Shown here: positions 3,326 to 11,144 of the stretch, in pieces
How the letters are laid out: each line of letters opens with the position of its first letter
Position numbering within the stretch: position 1 is the stretch's first letter
Origin: Crenothrix polyspora
Lineage (GTDB): Bacteria; Pseudomonadota; Gammaproteobacteria; Methylococcales; Methylomonadaceae
NCBI RefSeq assembly: GCF_900163745.1
Contig: NZ_FUKJ01000002.1
Span: forward strand, 1-32,933
Length of the DNA: 32,933 bases
Direction: 5' to 3'
Notes under the pieces: model-generated
The model's input: only the letters and a program-made list of their open reading frames with translations
The model's database searches: none
What the model was told of the DNA's origin: nothing
Position numbers and translations under genes: made by a program

Positions 3326-5536
3326 GTGAGCAGTGACATCAACGCGACAACCGCCGCGAAAAACGAGGTGGTGACAACCCTTATCAGCACTTTGAATGAT
3401 GCGCAGTGTCAGGCAGTGACCACGCCTGCGCAGTCGGTACTGGTTTTGGCCGGTGCCGGTAGCGGTAAGACGCGGGTTTTGGTGCATCGCATCGCCTGGC
3501 AAATTCAGGTGCGGAATGTATCGATGCACAGTATTTTGGCGGTGACTTTTACCAACAAAGCCGCAAAAGAAATGCGCGGCAGAATTGAGGCCTTGTTGCA
3601 AGTGTCTGCGCGTGCCATGTGGATAGGGACTTTTCACGGTGTGGCGCATCGCTTATTGCGTAGCCATACCAAACAGGCGAAATTGCCGGACACTTTTCAG
3701 GTAATGGACAGTGCCGATCAATTAAGATTAATTAAGCGTTTGCTGGTGACGCTGAATCTGGATGAAGACAAATGGCCGCCACGGCAAATCCAGTGGCATA
3801 TCAATGCCCAGAAAGATGAAGGCATAAGAGCCAAGGATTGCATTGCCGGCTATGATCTCTATCAGCAAAATCTGTTAAAGATTTATCAGGCTTATGAAGC
3901 GTTGTGCGAGCGTTCAGGGCTGGTCGATTTTGGTGAATTGCTACTGCGTGCGCATGAGTTACTGCGTGATAATCCTGACGTATTGAGATTTTATCAGCAA
4001 CGTTTTAACCAGGTTCATGTTGATGAATTTCAAGATACCAATGCCATACAATATGCGTGGTTACGGCTATTGACGCAAGGTCAGGACAATATTTTTGTGG
4101 TGGGGGATGACGACCAATCTATTTACGGTTGGCGGGGTGCAAAAATTGAAAACATCTATAGCTTTCAAAAGCATTATCCAGATCATCAAGTGGTCAAGCT
4201 TGAACAAAACTACCGATCCACCGGCATGATTCTTAAGGCTGCGAATGCGGTGGTGGCTAACAACGAGGGCCGGATGGGTAAAGCGTTGTGGACGGCTTCG
4301 GCTGATGGCGATCCTATCGCCTTATACGCGGCATTTAATGAGCAGGATGAAGCTTATTTTGTGGTTGAGCGTATTCGTTCCTGGTTCAATGACGGTGGTA
4401 AATATAGCGATGTGGCTATTTTGTATCGCTCTAATGCGCAATCGCGTCAGTTTGAAGAACGCTTAATGACCGCCGCTATACCTTATCGGGTTTACGGTGG
4501 TTTGCGGTTTTTTGAACGGGCGGAAATTAAAAACGCGCTGGCTTATTTGCGCTTGATCGCCAATCGCCATGATGATGCGTCATTTGAACGTGTTATCAAT
4601 ACTCCGACGCGTGGCATAGGGGCGAAAAGCCTGGAAGATATGCGCACTATAGCGCGGGAACTGGCTATATCGATGTGGTCGGCGATGATGGTATTGCTGG
4701 ATCAGGGGCACTTATCGGGGCGTGCCAACAATGCCTTGCTGGCTTTTGCGCAGCTGATTAAAAACCTGGATCAACTGGTCGAGGGCTCGGAGCTTTACGA
4801 AAAAGTGCAGTTGGTGATTGAAAAAAGTGGCTTGCTTGAGTTCCATGAAAAAGAAAAAGCCGATAAGGGCGATGAAAAGGTAGAGAATTTAAAAGAATTG
4901 GTCAATGCAGCACGATTGTTTGATTTTGATAGCAACCTTGAAGGTATGGAAAACCTCAGTGAGCTGGATATGTTCCTGGCTTATGCGACCCTGGAATCTG
5001 GCGATATGCAGGCCGACGATTTTGATGAATGCGTACAACTGATGACCTTGCATTCGGCGAAAGGCCTGGAATTTAAACTGGTTTTTTTGGTGGGCTTGGA
5101 AGAAGGCCTATTTCCATCCCAGCAATCGCTTGATGATGTCGGGCGTTTACAGGAAGAGCGCCGCCTGTGTTATGTGGGCATTACCCGTGCGATGCAGTAT
5201 TTGTACTTAAGCTATGCAGAATCCAGACGCTTATACGGGCGCGAAAGCTACCCCAGGCCGTCACGGTTTTTGCGTGAGATACCCGCTGAATGTATCCAAG
5301 AAGTGCGGTTACGTGCCGAGGTGAGTCGTCCGGTTACTGCTATTAAACCTAAATCTGCTAGTTTGCAGACAGCCGGACAATATCGCTTGGGGCAGCGGGT
5401 AAGCCATGTTAAGTTTGGCGAAGGGGTAATATTGCAAACAGAAGGTGCGGGGGATCAGGAACGGGTGCAGATTAACTTTAGGCAAGTGGGTATTAAGTGG
5501 TTGATGCTGGCTTATGCAAAGCTGGATGTTTTGTAG
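3326..5536 (+). CDS. uvrD: DNA helicase II, UvrD/Rep superfamily 1A
   Basis: UvrD is a 3'-5' DNA helicase for nucleotide excision and mismatch repair and for clearing stalled complexes. At 736 aa it matches UvrD (E. coli 720). Superfamily 1 motifs occur in order: Walker A AGAGSGKT, motif Ia FTNKAAKEM, motif II VDEFQDTN, motif III VGDDDQSIYGWRGA, motif IV EQNYRST, motif V TLHSAKGLEF and motif VI YVGITRA. The C-terminus (about residues 685-736, GQRVSHVKFGEGVI) is the Tudor-like UvrD/PcrA tail that contacts RNA polymerase. GTG 3326 is chosen because AGGAGG sits 10 nt upstream. It is monocistronic and converges on the polyphosphate operon. Confidence 0.96.
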   Translation: MSSDINATTAAKNEVVTTLISTLNDAQCQAVTTPAQSVLVLAGAGSGKTRVLVHRIAWQIQVRNVSMHSILAVTFTNKAAKEMRGRIEALLQVSARAMWIGTFHGVAHRLLRSHTKQAKLPDTFQVMDSADQLRLIKRLLVTLNLDEDKWPPRQIQWHINAQKDEGIRAKDCIAGYDLYQQNLLKIYQAYEALCERSGLVDFGELLLRAHELLRDNPDVLRFYQQRFNQVHVDEFQDTNAIQYAWLRLLTQGQDNIFVVGDDDQSIYGWRGAKIENIYSFQKHYPDHQVVKLEQNYRSTGMILKAANAVVANNEGRMGKALWTASADGDPIALYAAFNEQDEAYFVVERIRSWFNDGGKYSDVAILYRSNAQSRQFEERLMTAAIPYRVYGGLRFFERAEIKNALAYLRLIANRHDDASFERVINTPTRGIGAKSLEDMRTIARELAISMWSAMMVLLDQGHLSGRANNALLAFAQLIKNLDQLVEGSELYEKVQLVIEKSGLLEFHEKEKADKGDEKVENLKELVNAARLFDFDSNLEGMENLSELDMFLAYATLESGDMQADDFDECVQLMTLHSAKGLEFKLVFLVGLEEGLFPSQQSLDDVGRLQEERRLCYVGITRAMQYLYLSYAESRRLYGRESYPRPSRFLREIPAECIQEVRLRAEVSRPVTAIKPKSASLQTAGQYRLGQRVSHVKFGEGVILQTEGAGDQERVQINFRQVGIKWLMLAYAKLDVL

Positions 5537-5581: not shown

Positions 5582-6424
5582 TTAGCCATCCAAAAGATCA
5601 AAATATGACTGCCGGTCAAGTGGCATAAACCAATCGCCGTTATCAAAATGCGAAACCAGCGTGGCGCTGGCATATTTAGAAAAACCACTGTGCTGTAGCT
5701 CAAAGGTACGGATCAAATCCAGCATCCAATAGGGGACTTCGCCGACCATGCACTTTAATTCCAGCACCACGCTGGCATCGCCGCTTTTAGTGTTGGTGGC
5801 ATAGATGGTTTCGTTGTCATAGTGGGTCATGCCATAGGTGGCGAGAAGATTGTAGTCATCCTGAACACGGTATTGCATGTGGGCATCCAGCGTCACCCGT
5901 GAGTATTCGTCTATGGTAGAAAAAAAAGCGCGTCGGCGGTAGGTGGTTAATATTTTCGGTTCAATGGCATAGGTGGTCGCTAAGCGTAAAAATAGCTCTT
6001 TGTTGGTTTTCTCGGCATGGGAATCAGATTCAGGTGGCCGGAACGCAGGGTCGGTTAATATATAGGGCCATTGATGCGCTTGTGCGGTGGCGCGGTATTT
6101 GGTGACTACGCCGGAAGCGCCGGTACGATGTTTGACTTCCAAAAAATAGGGGCCTACATCGCCATCGCCGTAAAAACGGGTACGCATGTTAAAGCGTATT
6201 TCCTTGCCGCCTATGCGCTGCTTTAAAAATTCATAGCCCGGTGAGTCAAAGTACAAACTACCCACTTTATAAAAATAATTGTCGGCTTTGGTCTTGACGG
6301 AATAATTGTCCAGATCGCAATACAGGCTGATAAAGTCGCTGATGGGTTCAACATAAGACCAGGGGATTTGGTATTTCAGTTCATAACGTTCCAGTACCGG
6401 TGGCAGTAAATTGATCTTGGACAT
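5582..6424 (-). CDS. VTC-domain polyphosphate polymerase
   Basis: This is a 280-aa protein of the VTC (triphosphate tunnel) family. The yeast homologue Vtc4 makes polyphosphate from ATP on a metal-lined beta-tunnel. The paired basic and acidic tunnel residues are all visible: ERYELKY (E12, R13, E15, K17), SLYFDSP (56-62), RFNMRTR (R77, R81, R83), LEVKHR (E96, K98), TKYRA (K109, R111), TYRRR (161-165), LELKC (E222, K224) and FSKYA (K250). It looks catalytically complete and lacks SPX or membrane segments, so it is probably cytoplasmic, perhaps held by the DUF4956 partner. It is the last gene of the operon, 7 nt after the TolC-like gene. The substrate is inferred from the family. Confidence 0.88.
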   Translation of the reverse strand: MSKINLLPPVLERYELKYQIPWSYVEPISDFISLYCDLDNYSVKTKADNYFYKVGSLYFDSPGYEFLKQRIGGKEIRFNMRTRFYGDGDVGPYFLEVKHRTGASGVVTKYRATAQAHQWPYILTDPAFRPPESDSHAEKTNKELFLRLATTYAIEPKILTTYRRRAFFSTIDEYSRVTLDAHMQYRVQDDYNLLATYGMTHYDNETIYATNTKSGDASVVLELKCMVGEVPYWMLDLIRTFELQHSGFSKYASATLVSHFDNGDWFMPLDRQSYFDLLDG

Positions 6425-6431
6425 CGTCGGT

Positions 6432-7745
6432 TTACCCGTGAACGCGAGGCTGCTGCGCCGTTTTTTGTAGTGTCGCCGGTTGTAAGGCGGGTATCTTGGT
6501 ATGCAGCCAATTACGCAGTGGCTGAGCGGTTAATTGCCCGGCAATCGTCAGGTAGCCGACGTAAAGTGTTAATGCCTCTTGGTGTATATCCAGTAATTCT
6601 TTAAGCTTTTTGGCGTGTTCAATATGTAAGGCCAGTGCCAATTGCGGGTTGGATTTCGCGTAGTCTTTTTCCAGGCGTGCGTTGAGTTTATCCATTTGCT
6701 TTTGCGTCACTTGCCATTCTTCCAGCAGCCATTTCATTTTGGTACGTTTTTCATCAAGGCCTTGTGCCGTCGTGTAAGTGCTGTCATGAAGCTTGAAATG
6801 AGCGTCATACATGTCGTGGCGCGTTTCGGTGGTTTGAAAATTTTCTGTGCCTAGCGGAATGTTAACCCCCACCATAAAGCCCAGTTTGAGGTCTTTTTTG
6901 GGATCGTCAGTGTCATCAACCTGAAATCTGAGCAAATTTATGCCCAATTGTTGCGTAGATTTTTTGTGTTGGTTTTTCGCTTTGGCTTGCTCCAAATCCA
7001 GACGGGATTTGATCACTTCAGGAATCTGCCGTGGCTCAATGGCCTGAGCCATGATACTGTGCATTTGTGGCACGGAAATCAGCCAGTCCAGCGCATTGCT
7101 TGAAGCCATTAATGTTTCTTTGCTGTTGTCTGGTATCTTTAATTGGCTTTGCAAATCGTGCAAACGCCGTAAATTTAAGTCAACCATGTCTTTGGTTTGC
7201 TCGAAAGCGATTTCGACATCCAATAGGTTTTCTTCATTGAATTCGGCGCTATTGACCAGGCTACGATTCAACTGCACCTGCTTGTTCAATAATTCATTGG
7301 ATTCCAGTAAAAAATCCGTCTGGTTACGTTGTGCGATAAGTTCCAGTATCAGGTTGTAACGTCGGCTTAATTCGGTATTCAGCGCTTCATTGTATAGGGC
7401 ATCTTCCTGATGGGAGCGTAGTTGCAGAATTTTTTGTTCAGCATCGCGCTGTCCCCAGGCTTTGGGCTTTACACGAATGCCATAACTTTGGCTGTAGACA
7501 TCTGCGATGCCTTTGTTTAAGTCGGCGGGCTGAGTCTCATCCGCAGCATTGACGCGAATTTGCGATTCTTCAATCCAGGAGCTTAAGCCATTCAGTTCAG
7601 GAATATCTTTGCGGGTGGTGTTAACGGTGTCAAGTTCGGTCTGCGCCGCCAGTAGAAACGTGTTAATGGCGGGTAGTTCGGTTGCAAAGACGTGTGCAGG
7701 GACGCTGGACAGAAGCAACGAAATCAAGAATAGCCTTAAAGTCAT
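6432..7745 (-). CDS. TolC-like outer membrane efflux protein
   Basis: This 437-aa protein has a signal peptide (hydrophobic 4-14, probable cleavage after HVFA at 22). The mature part is mostly long charged, heptad-like helices (about 95-200 and 330-420). The segment LGFMVGVNIPLGTENF near 290-305 resembles the beta-strand 'LGFxVSIPL' part of outer membrane efflux proteins. It is somewhat short for TolC (471) and divergent, so outer membrane channel is the best but not the only reading. It starts 2 nt after the stop of the HlyD-like gene and is followed after 7 nt by the VTC gene. An adaptor, a TolC-like duct and a polymerase in one operon suggest a trans-envelope route. Confidence 0.72.
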   Translation of the reverse strand: MTLRLFLISLLLSSVPAHVFATELPAINTFLLAAQTELDTVNTTRKDIPELNGLSSWIEESQIRVNAADETQPADLNKGIADVYSQSYGIRVKPKAWGQRDAEQKILQLRSHQEDALYNEALNTELSRRYNLILELIAQRNQTDFLLESNELLNKQVQLNRSLVNSAEFNEENLLDVEIAFEQTKDMVDLNLRRLHDLQSQLKIPDNSKETLMASSNALDWLISVPQMHSIMAQAIEPRQIPEVIKSRLDLEQAKAKNQHKKSTQQLGINLLRFQVDDTDDPKKDLKLGFMVGVNIPLGTENFQTTETRHDMYDAHFKLHDSTYTTAQGLDEKRTKMKWLLEEWQVTQKQMDKLNARLEKDYAKSNPQLALALHIEHAKKLKELLDIHQEALTLYVGYLTIAGQLTAQPLRNWLHTKIPALQPATLQKTAQQPRVHG

Positions 7746-7747
7746 GG

Positions 7748-9709
7748 TTACTGTGCAGCACCGTCTAATGTCAGTTTTTGGTATTTTGAAGTATTGTTTT
7801 TGCCTTCATCAAAAACCACAACAAGTGATGCGATATCAGGGCGATAGGTAACGCCCTCGGCATTAACGTCAGGAAAATGCGCCAAGTTTTTAAGACTGTT
7901 ATCTTTAAGCATAACGCGCCACAAATAGCTATTTTTTGCCGAGGTACGCGCCACACTCAACAGGAAGAGGCGGTCATCCACTACCAACATATCCGATAAT
8001 TGTGTGGGTTCACCGGTATTGGGATCTTTTAAGGCAAGGGTTTGCCAGATTTCGGCAGCGGTGTCTTTACCTGCAAAAATAGCCTCCAGATTATTCAGTT
8101 TCATAATAACTGTAGAGTTTCCATCAATAAAAGGCGCTTTAAAACCCAGATACAGTGCGTTATCTTTAACAAAGTGCGATTCAATATCAATACTGTGATC
8201 GCTCATGGCTTGCGTTAAAAATGTGGCCACTTTTGATTCTGGCTGCTTATCCTTGATTGCGGTTAACACTTCAAACAAGTCAGCTTCTTGCTGCGTGGTT
8301 ACCTGGTTATGCTGATATTTAAAGCGCAACAGTTTTTTACGTTTGGATTTTAATTCATCATTTTTGTTATAAGCCAGTGAGCTGCTGACATAAATATAGT
8401 CACCATCGGTACTGATGCTTTCAAGGTCATCAATCGAGGTGTCGTCTTGCATGACCAGTTTGTCGGTAACCACAACATTTTTGTCCAAGATGAAAATACC
8501 AGGCCGGTCATCATCCTGCTCATCGCTAAGCAACAAATAATGGCTTTCTTTAGGATTCCAGAGCAATGCCGAAGCTTCTATATTTGTCATATCAATTTTG
8601 GGGTTGGCAGTAGTGAGTGTGGGTAATGGGGCGGCCTTGCGCGTATCTTGAGATCCTGCATGGACTTTACCAATTAGCGTTAACCATTGAAACGGTGGTT
8701 CTTTTTGGCTTAAAAAAATATCCACTTTTTCGCCAAAAAGCAGTGAGTTTTTGGTTGTCAAGCGTACCACGACTTCACGCCCCCAGGCGTTGATCAGCGG
8801 ATCCTTTTTGATGCGCTCAGGGTATTCGACAATACGGTTACCCAGGCTTTCTACAATGCCTTCCAGTGGCGGTTCATCATGGTTAAGTGTAATCGATTTT
8901 ACCCAAACGGTTTGACCTATGCGTACTTCGTTAAGAATATTTTCCTGAATAAAGCCTTTGACATTGGTGGGGGCCAGGCTATTTACGGTCATAATCGGTT
9001 GAAACGCAGCCACCAGATCGCCGGGTTTAAAGTGAATACTGCCTATGCGACCATTAAATTGAGCGTTAACTCTTAGGCTTTTGTTTTGCCGCTGCAATTC
9101 GGTTTTATTGCCTTGCAGTTCAGCAATCTGGGCATCGACCGGCCTGCGTGTTGCATTCAATTGCTGGGTCAGGTTATTAATTTCTGCCTGTATGGCTTGA
9201 GCAGCATAGTGGCGTTTTTTCTCCAGGTCGGCAATCTCAAGTGTTTCTGATGTGGGTGTTTCTTGCGCTATGTGCGTTCCGGAAATGCTTTCGGCAAGCA
9301 TTTTATTGTGCTGTATCAACTGTAGTCGTGCTTCAATTTCATGAATTTTTTGGTCTATATCCGCCAATGTAGATTCTTTGTTGGCGACTAAACTTTCAAT
9401 TTGACTGGTGATGGTTTGGTGCGCTTCATTTTTTTCCAGCTTAAGTTTTTTGATTTGTTCATCCAGAGTGTTTTGGCTTGACGTTAAATCGTGGCGTTTG
9501 ACTTCCAGTATTGCCATGCCCTGGGCAACGTCTTCACCTTCTAACGCTAGCGTCTGTATGATTTCAACAGGGTACTGAAAACTGATGTTTTGCTCGCGAT
9601 TATCGGCGATACCGAAAAAATGCTCAGATTTACGGTTAAACGAATCGGCTAATTTGAAGATGCCAACCATGGCTAAAATCCAACATAAAGGCAGTATTGC
9701 TTTTTTCAT
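7748..9709 (-). CDS. HlyD-like periplasmic adaptor fused to a beta-propeller-like domain
   Basis: This is a 653-aa fusion. Residues 4-21 form one membrane anchor. Residues 42-72 (PVEIIQTLALEGEDVAQG) and 213-245 (RIGSIHFKPGDLVAAFQPIM) are the two halves of a lipoyl fold, separated by a coiled coil of about 140 residues. Residues 246-335 look like the adaptor beta-barrel. Residues about 375-653 form a separate domain with repeated strands, including LLWNPKESHYLLLSDEQ and LESISTDGDYIYVSSSLAYN. This resembles DUF3616 / phytase-esterase-like propellers. Start ATG 9709 follows AAGAG; a TTG at 9730 is also in frame. It lies 10 nt after the DUF4956 stop and 2 nt before the TolC-like gene. The fusion is unusual for an adaptor. 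Confidence 0.78.
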   Translation of the reverse strand: MKKAILPLCWILAMVGIFKLADSFNRKSEHFFGIADNREQNISFQYPVEIIQTLALEGEDVAQGMAILEVKRHDLTSSQNTLDEQIKKLKLEKNEAHQTITSQIESLVANKESTLADIDQKIHEIEARLQLIQHNKMLAESISGTHIAQETPTSETLEIADLEKKRHYAAQAIQAEINNLTQQLNATRRPVDAQIAELQGNKTELQRQNKSLRVNAQFNGRIGSIHFKPGDLVAAFQPIMTVNSLAPTNVKGFIQENILNEVRIGQTVWVKSITLNHDEPPLEGIVESLGNRIVEYPERIKKDPLINAWGREVVVRLTTKNSLLFGEKVDIFLSQKEPPFQWLTLIGKVHAGSQDTRKAAPLPTLTTANPKIDMTNIEASALLWNPKESHYLLLSDEQDDDRPGIFILDKNVVVTDKLVMQDDTSIDDLESISTDGDYIYVSSSLAYNKNDELKSKRKKLLRFKYQHNQVTTQQEADLFEVLTAIKDKQPESKVATFLTQAMSDHSIDIESHFVKDNALYLGFKAPFIDGNSTVIMKLNNLEAIFAGKDTAAEIWQTLALKDPNTGEPTQLSDMLVVDDRLFLLSVARTSAKNSYLWRVMLKDNSLKNLAHFPDVNAEGVTYRPDIASLVVVFDEGKNNTSKYQKLTLDGAAQ

Positions 9710-9719
9710 CCCAGTTCTC

Positions 9720-10406
9720 TTATAAGTCAACAGTCGCTTCTTGCATCATTAAACTCAATCCTTGGAGTTCTTTAATAGTTTTCAGTTCGACCATAAAATT
9801 GTCATAGCTCATTTTTTTGCGTAATTTAATATGGTAGGCGTAATCCAGACGCTGGCCTTGGGCAATTTCTCTGAGGGTTACCAGTGCAAAAGCACGGCAA
9901 TATTTATCTAACAGGGTTTCTAACTGTTTTTTGTCTTCATTGTTTGTGGTGGGCAGATTAAATCTGAGCATGCCGTCAAAGTAACTGTTAGGGCCTAGCG
10001 GCGAATAGTACAAAAGAATGGTGGCCAGGGCGAAACCTACCGTTCCGGTAATGGCAACCGGGAAGGCATAAGCCCCACAGGAAATACCTTCGGCAAGTGA
10101 TGCAAACATAAACAGGGTGTCGCGTGGGTCTTTAAAATTGGTTCTAAACCGGATAATAGACATCGCCGCCATAATGCCGATGCCGCGTGACATGCTATCG
10201 CCTACCGACTGAATAACCACTGCGGCGATAATTGAAATCAGTACAATCGATTGCACATAGTTACGTGAATACGACAAACCTCTAAAGGTTTTCTGGTAAA
10301 CATAAGCCAGCAGTGTTGATAGCACAAACGCCAGTAGAATAGTGAATATTAACGTCCAAACGCTGGCATTTTCAGCAGCAGTTTGTACGGTTATGGCATC
10401 AAACAT
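9720..10406 (-). CDS. DUF4956 membrane protein
   Basis: This is a 228-aa inner membrane protein. Hydrophobic segments lie at about 15-37, 50-69, 72-86, 97-112 and 113-135, followed by a soluble C-terminal domain (about 145-228). The motif SIIRFRTNFKDPRD at 83-96 is the signature of DUF4956, a family of unknown function. In many bacteria it sits beside VTC-type polyphosphate polymerases (general knowledge), as it does here. It is the first gene of the operon, with a good AAGGA about 7 nt before ATG. A role as membrane partner or channel for polyphosphate is inference. Confidence 0.88.
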   Translation of the reverse strand: MFDAITVQTAAENASVWTLIFTILLAFVLSTLLAYVYQKTFRGLSYSRNYVQSIVLISIIAAVVIQSVGDSMSRGIGIMAAMSIIRFRTNFKDPRDTLFMFASLAEGISCGAYAFPVAITGTVGFALATILLYYSPLGPNSYFDGMLRFNLPTTNNEDKKQLETLLDKYCRAFALVTLREIAQGQRLDYAYHIKLRKKMSYDNFMVELKTIKELQGLSLMMQEATVDL

Positions 10407-10974: not shown

Positions 10975-11144
10975 TATCCACTCGGTGTTCAAGTTTTTTT
11001 AGCTTGACTATAACGAACCCAGATAAATCAAGGCGTTTACGTCAATGGAATCAGATACCGAATGATAGCGCATACAGCTGCATACCTTAGATTTAGTGGG
11101 ATTTTCTAAAATCAAGAATTAAAAACTTGAACACCGAGTATCCA
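10975..11144. mobile_element. MITE-like element, 158 bp, with 6-bp target duplication
   Basis: Perfect 18-bp terminal inverted repeats, ctcggtgttcaagttttt at 10981-10998 and its complement at 11121-11138, bound a 158-bp segment without an ORF. The hexamer tatcca occurs directly outside both ends (10975-10980 and 11139-11144), as expected for a target duplication. This is the structure of a non-autonomous insertion element; the parent transposase family is not known to me. Confidence 0.8.

Follow-up and report, generated by a model that had tools for sequence, protein, structure and literature searches.

A conserved four-gene operon as a candidate pumpless route for polyphosphate export in diderm bacteria

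Introduction

Why should the gene for a predicted polyphosphate polymerase lie in one operon with genes for a periplasmic adaptor and an outer-membrane duct, and with no gene for a pump? The question is raised by a 32,933-nucleotide stretch of Crenothrix polyspora DNA, which at its full length is called the window here. Surface and secreted polyphosphate are known in bacteria, the exit route is not settled, and the available text of a gonococcal study supposes that other gene products may move the polymer across the outer membrane (PMC10237660); the operon is a concrete candidate for such a route in other bacteria.

Results

Operon layout

The operon occupies positions 5582–10406 of the window on the minus strand and carries, in coordinate order, the VTC, TolC-like, adaptor and DUF4956 genes separated by 7, 2 and 10 nt (Table 1); the tight four-gene set with gaps of 10, 2 and 7 nt described in a first-pass annotation of the sequence is thereby borne out, every ORF lying where it had been placed. 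The adaptor ORF as listed opened at a TTG at 9730, giving an overlap with the DUF4956 gene, and its ATG start gives the span in Table 1. The absence of a pump, also noted in that annotation, holds as well, in that ORFs and Pfam searches revealed no ABC, RND or MFS gene among the four. No such transporter occurred among the neighbour families with at least two members (77 neighbours scanned; 25 of 83 families listed), and the sole ABC set identified beside any related locus is Pst-like, an importer. The window yielded no Rfam match, and neither the promoter scan (17 against a shuffle mean of 12.4, SD 3.9) nor the terminator scan (10 against 7.7, SD 2.8) gave a clear excess.

Table 1. Genes of the minus-strand operon, with positions in the window
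Predicted product	Position	Strand	Remark
VTC-domain polyphosphate polymerase	5582..6424	-	280 aa
TolC-like (outer membrane efflux protein superfamily) duct	6432..7745	-	437 aa
Periplasmic HlyD-like adaptor with C-terminal beta-propeller	7748..9709	-	ATG start
DUF4956 inner-membrane protein, MgtC superfamily	9720..10406	-	Pfam DUF4956

The polymerase and its membrane partner

The VTC protein matches Pfam VTC (E 3.7e-35; 122 bits against a cut-off of 23), which is its sole Pfam match at E up to 1, neither SPX nor the VTC membrane domain being found. A single-sequence search against solved structures gave no match, but the family profile did match Vtc4 (3g3q, 1.6e-12), and R81, R83, K98, K109, R164, R176, E222 and K250 align with Vtc4 R264, R266, K281, K294, R361, R373, E426 and K458, respectively. 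These eight equivalents of catalytic and tunnel residues are invariant in 26 aligned VTC sequences, that of the window included (the alignment omits L046, truncated by a contig end), which together with the Vtc4 alignment confirms the earlier claim of intact tunnel residues; those of Vtc4 other than R264, R266 and E426 we take to be basic tunnel or catalytic residues. Considering the conserved catalytic residues, we infer that the protein synthesizes polyphosphate from the gamma-phosphate of ATP. The genome harbouring the operon also encodes PPK1, and the VTC protein should therefore be dispensable for an ordinary cytosolic polyphosphate store. In Vtc4, according to the available text of PMC9911596, synthesis is coupled with translocation via a basic channel; in the accessible parts of two further papers 'VTC' denotes another domain (PMC6514570) or the subject is the eukaryotic VTC (PMC10657179).

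The DUF4956 protein (Pfam, 1.8e-12) has an AlphaFold model (pLDDT 83.5) with five helices within residues 16–134 and a beta-alpha domain at 144–221. Residues 68–221 match the MgtC profile (hhalign, P 96.9, E 1.3e-10; controls 0.2), a comparison that begins after the first helices because the first MgtC row is short at its N-terminus; the single-protein match to Pfam MgtC is weak (E 0.6). The C-terminal domain (residues 140–228 only) resembles ACT/ferredoxin-like folds (Z 8.6–10.6); for the whole protein Foldseek returned nothing at E ≤0.001, and no sequence relatives with a solved structure were found. DUF4956 is thus an MgtC-like membrane protein with an ACT-like C-terminal domain, and it has conserved basic loops at residues 43–49 (GLSYSRN) and 86–96 (RFRTNxKDPRD). 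ACT-like domains are typically ligand-sensing, and MgtC, the look-alike of DUF4956, acts as a regulator rather than as an established channel. MgtC is also cited as a regulator in the available text of PMC12345266.

The adaptor and the duct

HlyD Pfam models match the N-terminal half of the adaptor with scores slightly under their cut-offs, and NCBIfam adaptor models match at up to 6.2e-13, yet far under theirs. The AlphaFold model (pLDDT 83.8) comprises an N-terminal helix (5–24), lipoyl/barrel domains, a long alpha-hairpin (73–210) and a beta-propeller (about 360–650), and Foldseek ranks EmrA (4tko, 9.7e-14) first and EmrAB–TolC (8zal) second. The protein is a HlyD/MFP-type periplasmic adaptor whose single-protein matches lie below curated cut-offs. 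YjiK is the nearest structural neighbour of the propeller (3qqz, Z 20.3), and there is likeness, too, to human apyrase (1s18, Z 18.0) and, about equally, to glutaminyl cyclases (Z 17–18). Neither this propeller nor the MgtC-like and ACT-like character of DUF4956 had been noted in the first-pass annotation. The propeller is missing from 18 adaptors (19 short ones minus that of L062, which has propeller pieces immediately downstream), and the adaptor alignment comprises only 19 propeller-bearing adaptors. The pattern RxxxLxxxxxxS/T, given in the available text of PMC3391258 as the TolC-binding motif of the adaptor tip, does not occur within residues 1–260 of the window adaptor and is present in 2 of 42 adaptors. 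Among 369 genomes of the class (at most three candidates per genome scored), full-length matches to the window adaptor were confined to three, all of them operon carriers (G000, G354 and G297), with partial matches in 12 others.

The window TolC-like protein by itself has no Pfam match, and the family profile searched against solved structures gave no TolC match. OEP is matched by 9 of the 28 aligned family members (best 5.8e-7), and profile comparison of the family with OEP gives a probability of 96.8 and E 2.9e-10, the adaptor and VTC profiles, run as controls, giving no match (0.5 and 0.1). The 437 aa protein is accordingly placed, at profile level only, among the outer membrane factors of the TolC superfamily, and the HlyD-like adaptor and TolC-like protein of the first-pass annotation are both supported. 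By eye, the N-terminus of the TolC-like protein is hydrophobic and signal-like.

Conservation of the four-gene set

When 84,980 species genomes were scanned for either of two short peptide patterns of this DUF4956 subfamily, 55 loci emerged; being restricted to these patterns, the scan missed more distant relatives. All four genes are found in 42 of the 54 loci with a callable gene, at or near full length in 40 and incompletely in L058 and L060; nine loci are interrupted by contig ends and three are true exceptions. Set aside before the 54 were L091 and L092, which at 28–29% identity belong to a different DUF4956 type, and L081, for which no DUF4956 ORF was called. Apparent duplicate contigs were counted once (L010=L036, L013=L060, L014=L037, L024=L065, L025=L049), L085 was counted despite a frame break in DUF4956, and the VTC gene of L060, outside the first tally span, is included in the final count; L071 was dropped from the adaptor count, its match being a cross-match of its TolC-like ORF.

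Carriers belong to the Gamma- and Alphaproteobacteria, Nitrospirales, Campylobacterales, Desulfobacterota, Fibrobacter, Spirochaetia, UBP6 and Sumerlaeota. Two main gene orders occur (DUF–HlyD–TolC–VTC and HlyD–TolC–VTC–DUF), and nearly every locus not cut by a contig end has this DUF4956 subfamily beside a VTC polymerase. Pairwise distance correlations among the four proteins (42 loci, the window and L011 included) range from 0.83 to 0.94, values reached by 0 of 999 permutations; the two Nitrospirales copies are nearest the gammaproteobacterial ones for DUF4956, VTC and the adaptor, but not for the duct. The four genes are a single conserved, co-diverging module, and joint conservation, for which the first-pass annotation had proposed a neighbourhood comparison and whose absence it would have taken as a refutation, extends over many bacterial groups.

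In the true exceptions, L057 and L069 retain DUF4956, adaptor and duct and have no VTC gene, either at the locus or in the rest of their genomes, which may be incomplete, and L048 has VTC with no adjoining TolC-like gene; the parts may therefore function separately. At the 48 DUF4956 columns conserved to at least 95%, the VTC-less L057 and L069 depart at 10 and 6, against a median of 0 and a maximum of 7 in VTC-bearing loci, the six of L069 falling inside the range of distant VTC-bearing loci. Loop 43–49, D144 and Q222 are altered in the loci that have no VTC.

Chance or a local oddity was ruled out as the origin of the operon by its conservation across distant groups. An origin from phage or plasmid was rejected, since viral contigs held no related locus, PHROGs gave no match and plasmids gave two weak VTC matches (28% and 24% identity).

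Discussion

We suggest, with a probability of about 0.5, that the operon encodes a pumpless, synthase-driven machine that would export polyphosphate across the entire envelope. At the inner face, VTC would turn ATP gamma-phosphate into a polyphosphate chain and pass it to DUF4956, whose basic loops and ACT-like domain would serve as docking site for VTC and make up the path through the inner membrane; the adaptor, with its EmrA-like hairpin and extra periplasmic propeller, would join this path to the dedicated TolC-like duct, by which the chain would leave the cell. Polymerization and membrane potential would stand in for an ABC, RND or MFS pump, the cytoplasm being negative, so that the potential favours exit of a polyanion.

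In favour of export we count the conserved module, its co-divergence, the specificity of the adaptor to operon carriers, the invariant catalytic residues, the Vtc4 precedent for coupling and PPK1; the earlier case for export gains further from phosphate-uptake genes next to 6 of the 54 loci and from the altered DUF4956 where VTC is missing. Against it we count the MgtC likeness of DUF4956, the missing RLS/RLT motif, the two loci without VTC and the one without an adjacent TolC-like gene, the 48 of 54 loci with no phosphate-uptake gene identified beside them, the CotH genes within 9 kb of 10 of the 54 loci, and deletions in Streptococcus intermedius. There, in the available text of PMC12345266, deletion of the related polymerase gene (SIR_1593) brought no reported decrease in aggregation, which did fall when the MgtC-ACT and CotH genes were deleted. 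A polymerase deletion lacking the MgtC-ACT phenotype speaks against tight coupling; the export reading put forward at first is partly supported, in that the four genes recur together and co-diverge, the operon is pumpless and the catalytic residues are conserved.

The duct might instead export another cargo (polysaccharide, protein or metal complex), with polyphosphate made just locally, to supply energy or phosphoryl groups or to act as counter-ion, and with DUF4956 as an MgtC-like regulator tuning VTC or phosphate status. The MgtC-like character and ACT-like domain of DUF4956 fit this explanation, as do the duct kept without VTC in two loci, the S. intermedius deletions, and the trio of CotH, polyphosphate polymerase and DUF4956 genes that the available text of PMC7112168 reports beside Gram-positive Pel polysaccharide clusters; VTC and DUF4956 are, however, constant partners of the adaptor and duct, and no single cargo family stands out in the 77 neighbours (25 of 83 families listed), where CotH (8), LTD (8) and phytase-like genes (7) are commonest, and we regard such a cargo as possible but unlikely. 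The abundance of CotH and LTD agrees with another proposal, that the machine supplies CotH-type kinases at the surface or in the periplasm, along with further secreted proteins, with polyphosphate for extracellular phosphorylation, either as donor or as substrate. The set would be the version of a CotH–VTC–DUF4956 system that crosses the outer membrane. Four CotH genes lie elsewhere in the window genome (contigs C63 and C287), and among the 369 class genomes CotH is found in 7 of 9 with VTC against 18 of 360 without (Fisher p 9e-8); five of these seven carry CotH inside the VTC locus itself (G266, G311, G414, G418, G505) and are thus hardly informative on the four-gene arrangement. The genes adjoining the window operon are others than CotH, half of the 20 VTC-bearing operon genomes tested have none (among them G085, in two contigs and rated 100% complete), both VTC-less genomes carry it, and known CotH kinases use ATP, which makes the proposal improbable.

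A phosphate overflow or scavenging cycle, in which imported phosphate would go into a polyphosphate store located in the periplasm or farther out and be freed by the propeller (of the phytase-like/SdiA-regulated type) or by a separate phytase-like protein, seems to us more improbable still. It would account for the phosphate-uptake neighbours, namely PiT beside L040, L044, L065 and L051 (the last also with PhoU_div), PhoU_div beside L089, and a PstS-like protein, PhoU, two permeases and an ATPase beside L045, for phytase-like genes downstream of VTC in L037, L040 (after PiT) and L060, and for the likeness of the propeller to apyrase; yet the propeller is nearest to YjiK, glutaminyl cyclases score about like apyrase, and 18 adaptors do without it. 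Returning to polyphosphate export, its truth would mean a tripartite envelope conduit that works without a pump. It is rather doubtful that the operon represents a widespread pumpless secretion class of diderms, with a polymerase motor, an MgtC-like conduit and surface polyphosphate as an extracellular currency of energy and phosphoryl groups, on which CotH-type kinases, for example, might draw where present.

Comparison with known systems

With the eukaryotic VTC complex (Vtc1/3/4) the operon shares the VTC catalytic domain and conserved tunnel residues and, as a proposal, the coupling of synthesis to membrane passage described in the available text of PMC9911596; it differs in that no SPX or fused VTC membrane domain was found, in having DUF4956 as the membrane partner, and in adding an adaptor and outer-membrane duct. 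In Gram-positive bacteria, the accessory genes at Pel clusters (S. intermedius SIR_1592–1594) likewise pair a polymerase with an MgtC-ACT (DUF4956) protein, but the available texts mention no adaptor or duct with them (PMC7112168, PMC12345266), and the window operon has no adjoining CotH. Our literature searches found no report of a HlyD/TolC version of the polymerase–DUF4956 set. EmrAB–TolC, MacAB–TolC and type I secretion share the EmrA-like adaptor and TolC-superfamily duct, in contrast to which the operon has no ABC, MFS or RND transporter, a propeller fused to the adaptor, and no RLS/RLT tip motif. In synthase-dependent exopolysaccharide secretion, polymer growth is thought to drive export with no separate pump, as it would in the machine proposed here, whereas the operon would handle an inorganic polymer, has TolC/HlyD parts and encodes no glycosyltransferase among its four genes. 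Finally, the MgtC family shares with DUF4956 the membrane helices and C-terminal ACT-like domain, but what distinguishes this DUF4956 subfamily is its place next to a VTC polymerase, and it thereby gains a likely role as polymerase partner.

The operon and its distribution

The analyses presented here demonstrate that the Crenothrix polyspora operon is a conserved module, in which a polymerase with conserved catalytic residues is encoded together with an OEP-type duct, an EmrA-type adaptor and a DUF4956 membrane protein, and that none of the four genes encodes a pump, as the first-pass annotation had held. Its description as four minus-strand genes with gaps of 10, 2 and 7 nt was also confirmed, coordinates included. 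Upstream of DUF4956 no ORF of at least 90 aa occurs in the window before 11565; an imperfect inverted repeat there (74% complementary) is possibly a small repeat element. The genome is incomplete (467 contigs, 88% complete), and the window is one entire contig.

Features of the operon and its flanks
Feature	Position	Strand or orientation	Type
DUF4956	9720-10406	-	ORF
Adaptor	7748-9709	-	ORF
TolC-like	6432-7745	-	ORF
VTC	5582-6424	-	ORF
Gene taken to be UvrD-like	3326-5536	convergent to operon	
Inverted repeat, 50 nt	10980-11029 / 11090-11139		

Within the family sample, VTC relatives occur in 7/201 genomes (G numbers), six of them of the window type, and the five besides the window keep the same gene order as far as their contigs reach (that of G115 stops inside the adaptor; G067 is split by insertions). 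The class sample holds VTC in 9/369 genomes: three with the four-gene type (G000, the window genome; G354; G297), five with the CotH type, in which a CotH gene accompanies VTC (G266, G311, G414, G418, G505), and G304 (locus L029), where the gene after VTC and DUF4956 codes for a phosphate-selective porin O/P, a different outer-membrane partner. A scan of genome contigs yielded 57 loci (L numbers), reduced to 54 by removing two of another DUF4956 type and one without a called DUF4956 ORF. All four genes are at or near full length in 40 of the 54; L058 has them with VTC truncated by the contig end, L060 has them interrupted by insertions, and nine loci end before the missing gene (L038, L042, L050, L051, L052, L062, L067, L071, L077). 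The exceptions are L057 and L069, without VTC, and L048, without a TolC-like gene. We take the lineages named in the titles of the locus records to be diderm; several titles read only 'bacterium'.

The distances of the four genes co-vary (r 0.83–0.94, reached by 0/999 permutations), a correlation that fits co-transfer and shared ancestry alike and does not separate them. In the two Nitrospirales copies, however, DUF4956, VTC and the adaptor are nearest to gammaproteobacterial sequences, and the duct is nearest to an alphaproteobacterial one. In the copy of a Bathymodiolus methanotrophic symbiont (L060/L013), DUF4956 is broken by an insertion bearing IS66-type genes and the TolC-like gene by a second one, which includes a 371-aa gene on the opposite strand; this suggests operon decay in the symbiont.

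The polymerase and DUF4956

VTC is the sole domain detected in the window VTC protein, and a profile built from 26 aligned VTC sequences finds yeast Vtc4 at 1.6e-12. In the profile alignment, R81, R83, K98, K109, R164, R176, E222 and K250 of the window correspond to Vtc4 R264, R266, K281, K294, R361, R373, E426 and K458; all eight are invariant in 26/26 sequences, in line with the intact tunnel residues claimed earlier. K281, K294, R361, R373 and K458 of Vtc4 are presumably functional sites. Replacing R264, R266 and E426 inactivates Vtc4, according to an excerpt of PMC9911596. Judged from sequence, the VTC protein would thus synthesize polyphosphate. Relative to the window protein, the Crenothrix polyspora VTC of L010/L036 has 23 extra residues following position 34, an insertion absent from the other 25 aligned sequences.

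The DUF4956 model (pLDDT 83.5, pTM 0.67) places five helices within residues 16–134 and a beta-alpha domain at 144–221, the latter resembling ACT-like and ferredoxin-like folds (Z 8.6–10.6). Profile comparison with 15 MgtC proteins gave a probability of 96.9 (E 1.3e-10) over residues 68–221, and control adaptor and duct profiles gave no match to MgtC (0.2 each). This link is not new, since an MgtC-ACT architecture has been published for Streptococcus intermedius SIR_1592 (excerpt of PMC12345266); DUF4956 is named in streptococci (excerpt of PMC7112168), and SIR_1592 is taken to be the DUF4956 homologue of the trio of CotH, polymerase and MgtC-ACT genes to which it belongs. By the positive-inside rule, the basic loops 41–49 and 89–96 would face the cytosol.

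Behind the L057 duct gene stands a convergent UvrD-like gene of the kind that the window has after VTC, an arrangement that looks like loss of VTC, and VTC was found in neither the L057 nor the L069 genome, both possibly incomplete. Of 48 DUF4956 columns conserved at ≥95%, 10 are changed in the L057 protein and 6 in that of L069; for the 42 VTC-bearing loci the median is 0 and the maximum 7, the high values belonging to distant lineages (L088, L066, L086, L070) and to L085, whose DUF4956 gene has a frame break. The changes common to L057 and L069 (S45, R48, D144, Q222, and also G184, deleted in one) may be read as marking a VTC-docking face, and general decay of DUF4956 after loss of VTC would look similar.

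The adaptor, the duct and their neighbours

In the adaptor model (pLDDT 83.8), a helix occupies the N-terminus and a propeller the C-terminus; lipoyl and barrel domains and a hairpin (73–143 and 154–210) are also present. With pTM at 0.48, the packing of the domains is uncertain. EmrA is the top match of the first half by both structure and profile. YjiK is nearest to the propeller (Z 20.3 over 219 residues, rmsd 3.1), ahead of human apyrase (Z 18.0) and glutaminyl cyclases (16.8–17.9), a likeness of fold without implied function. Four Campylobacterales loci with short, propeller-less adaptors (L050, L054, L056, L058) have a separate propeller-type gene divergently upstream of DUF4956, which Pfam assigns to the SdiA-regulated/phytase-like type in L056 and L058. 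Family-level profiles place the duct in the OEP superfamily.

Phosphate-uptake genes adjoin 6/54 loci: PiT in L040, L044, L065 and L051 (the last with PhoU_div too), PhoU_div in L089 and, directly after VTC in L045, one PstS-like, one PhoU, two permease genes and one ATPase gene. CotH lies ≤9 kb from DUF4956 in 10/54 loci, and CotH and LTD each number 8 among 77 scanned neighbours. CotH is present in 12/22 genomes examined (10/20 with VTC, plus both VTC-less genomes), a sample skewed to CotH because 5/20 VTC genomes (L056, L063, L066, L082, L086) carry it beside the operon. The window genome has four CotH-kinase genes, in two pairs on contigs C63 and C287, away from the operon contig. PPK1 occurs in 12/22 genomes, the window genome among them, and is absent from the complete Desulfonema magnum chromosome. 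The rumen-type loci L072 and L073 have, upstream of the adaptor, a gene for a C25-type (gingipain-like) peptidase, and a gene of similar length occupies that position in L074, L078 and L079; these loci and related ones have a gene of 303–321 aa after DUF4956, for which Pfam gave no match in L072.

Mechanism and relation to known systems

We suggest that VTC synthesizes polyphosphate, which would pass through DUF4956 and may then leave the cell by way of adaptor and duct. The membrane potential favours exit of a polyanion from a negative cytoplasm, and this would account for the lack of a pump. The polyphosphate of yeast vacuoles depends on both the proton gradient and a lumen-positive potential (excerpt of PMC9911596).

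Outside Pel loci the S. intermedius-type trio was reportedly not found in synteny (excerpt of PMC12345266). The CotH-type loci found here (e.g. L015, L026, L027, L028, L030) may bear on that restriction. In the open-licence PMC literature we found no report of a VTC-HlyD-TolC set among the matches listed, and no paper in which 'polyphosphate polymerase' and 'TolC' occur together; DUF4956 is mentioned in 3 papers there. The module would be a union of known synthesis-coupled translocation with a known kind of duct, a combination that we found nowhere described.
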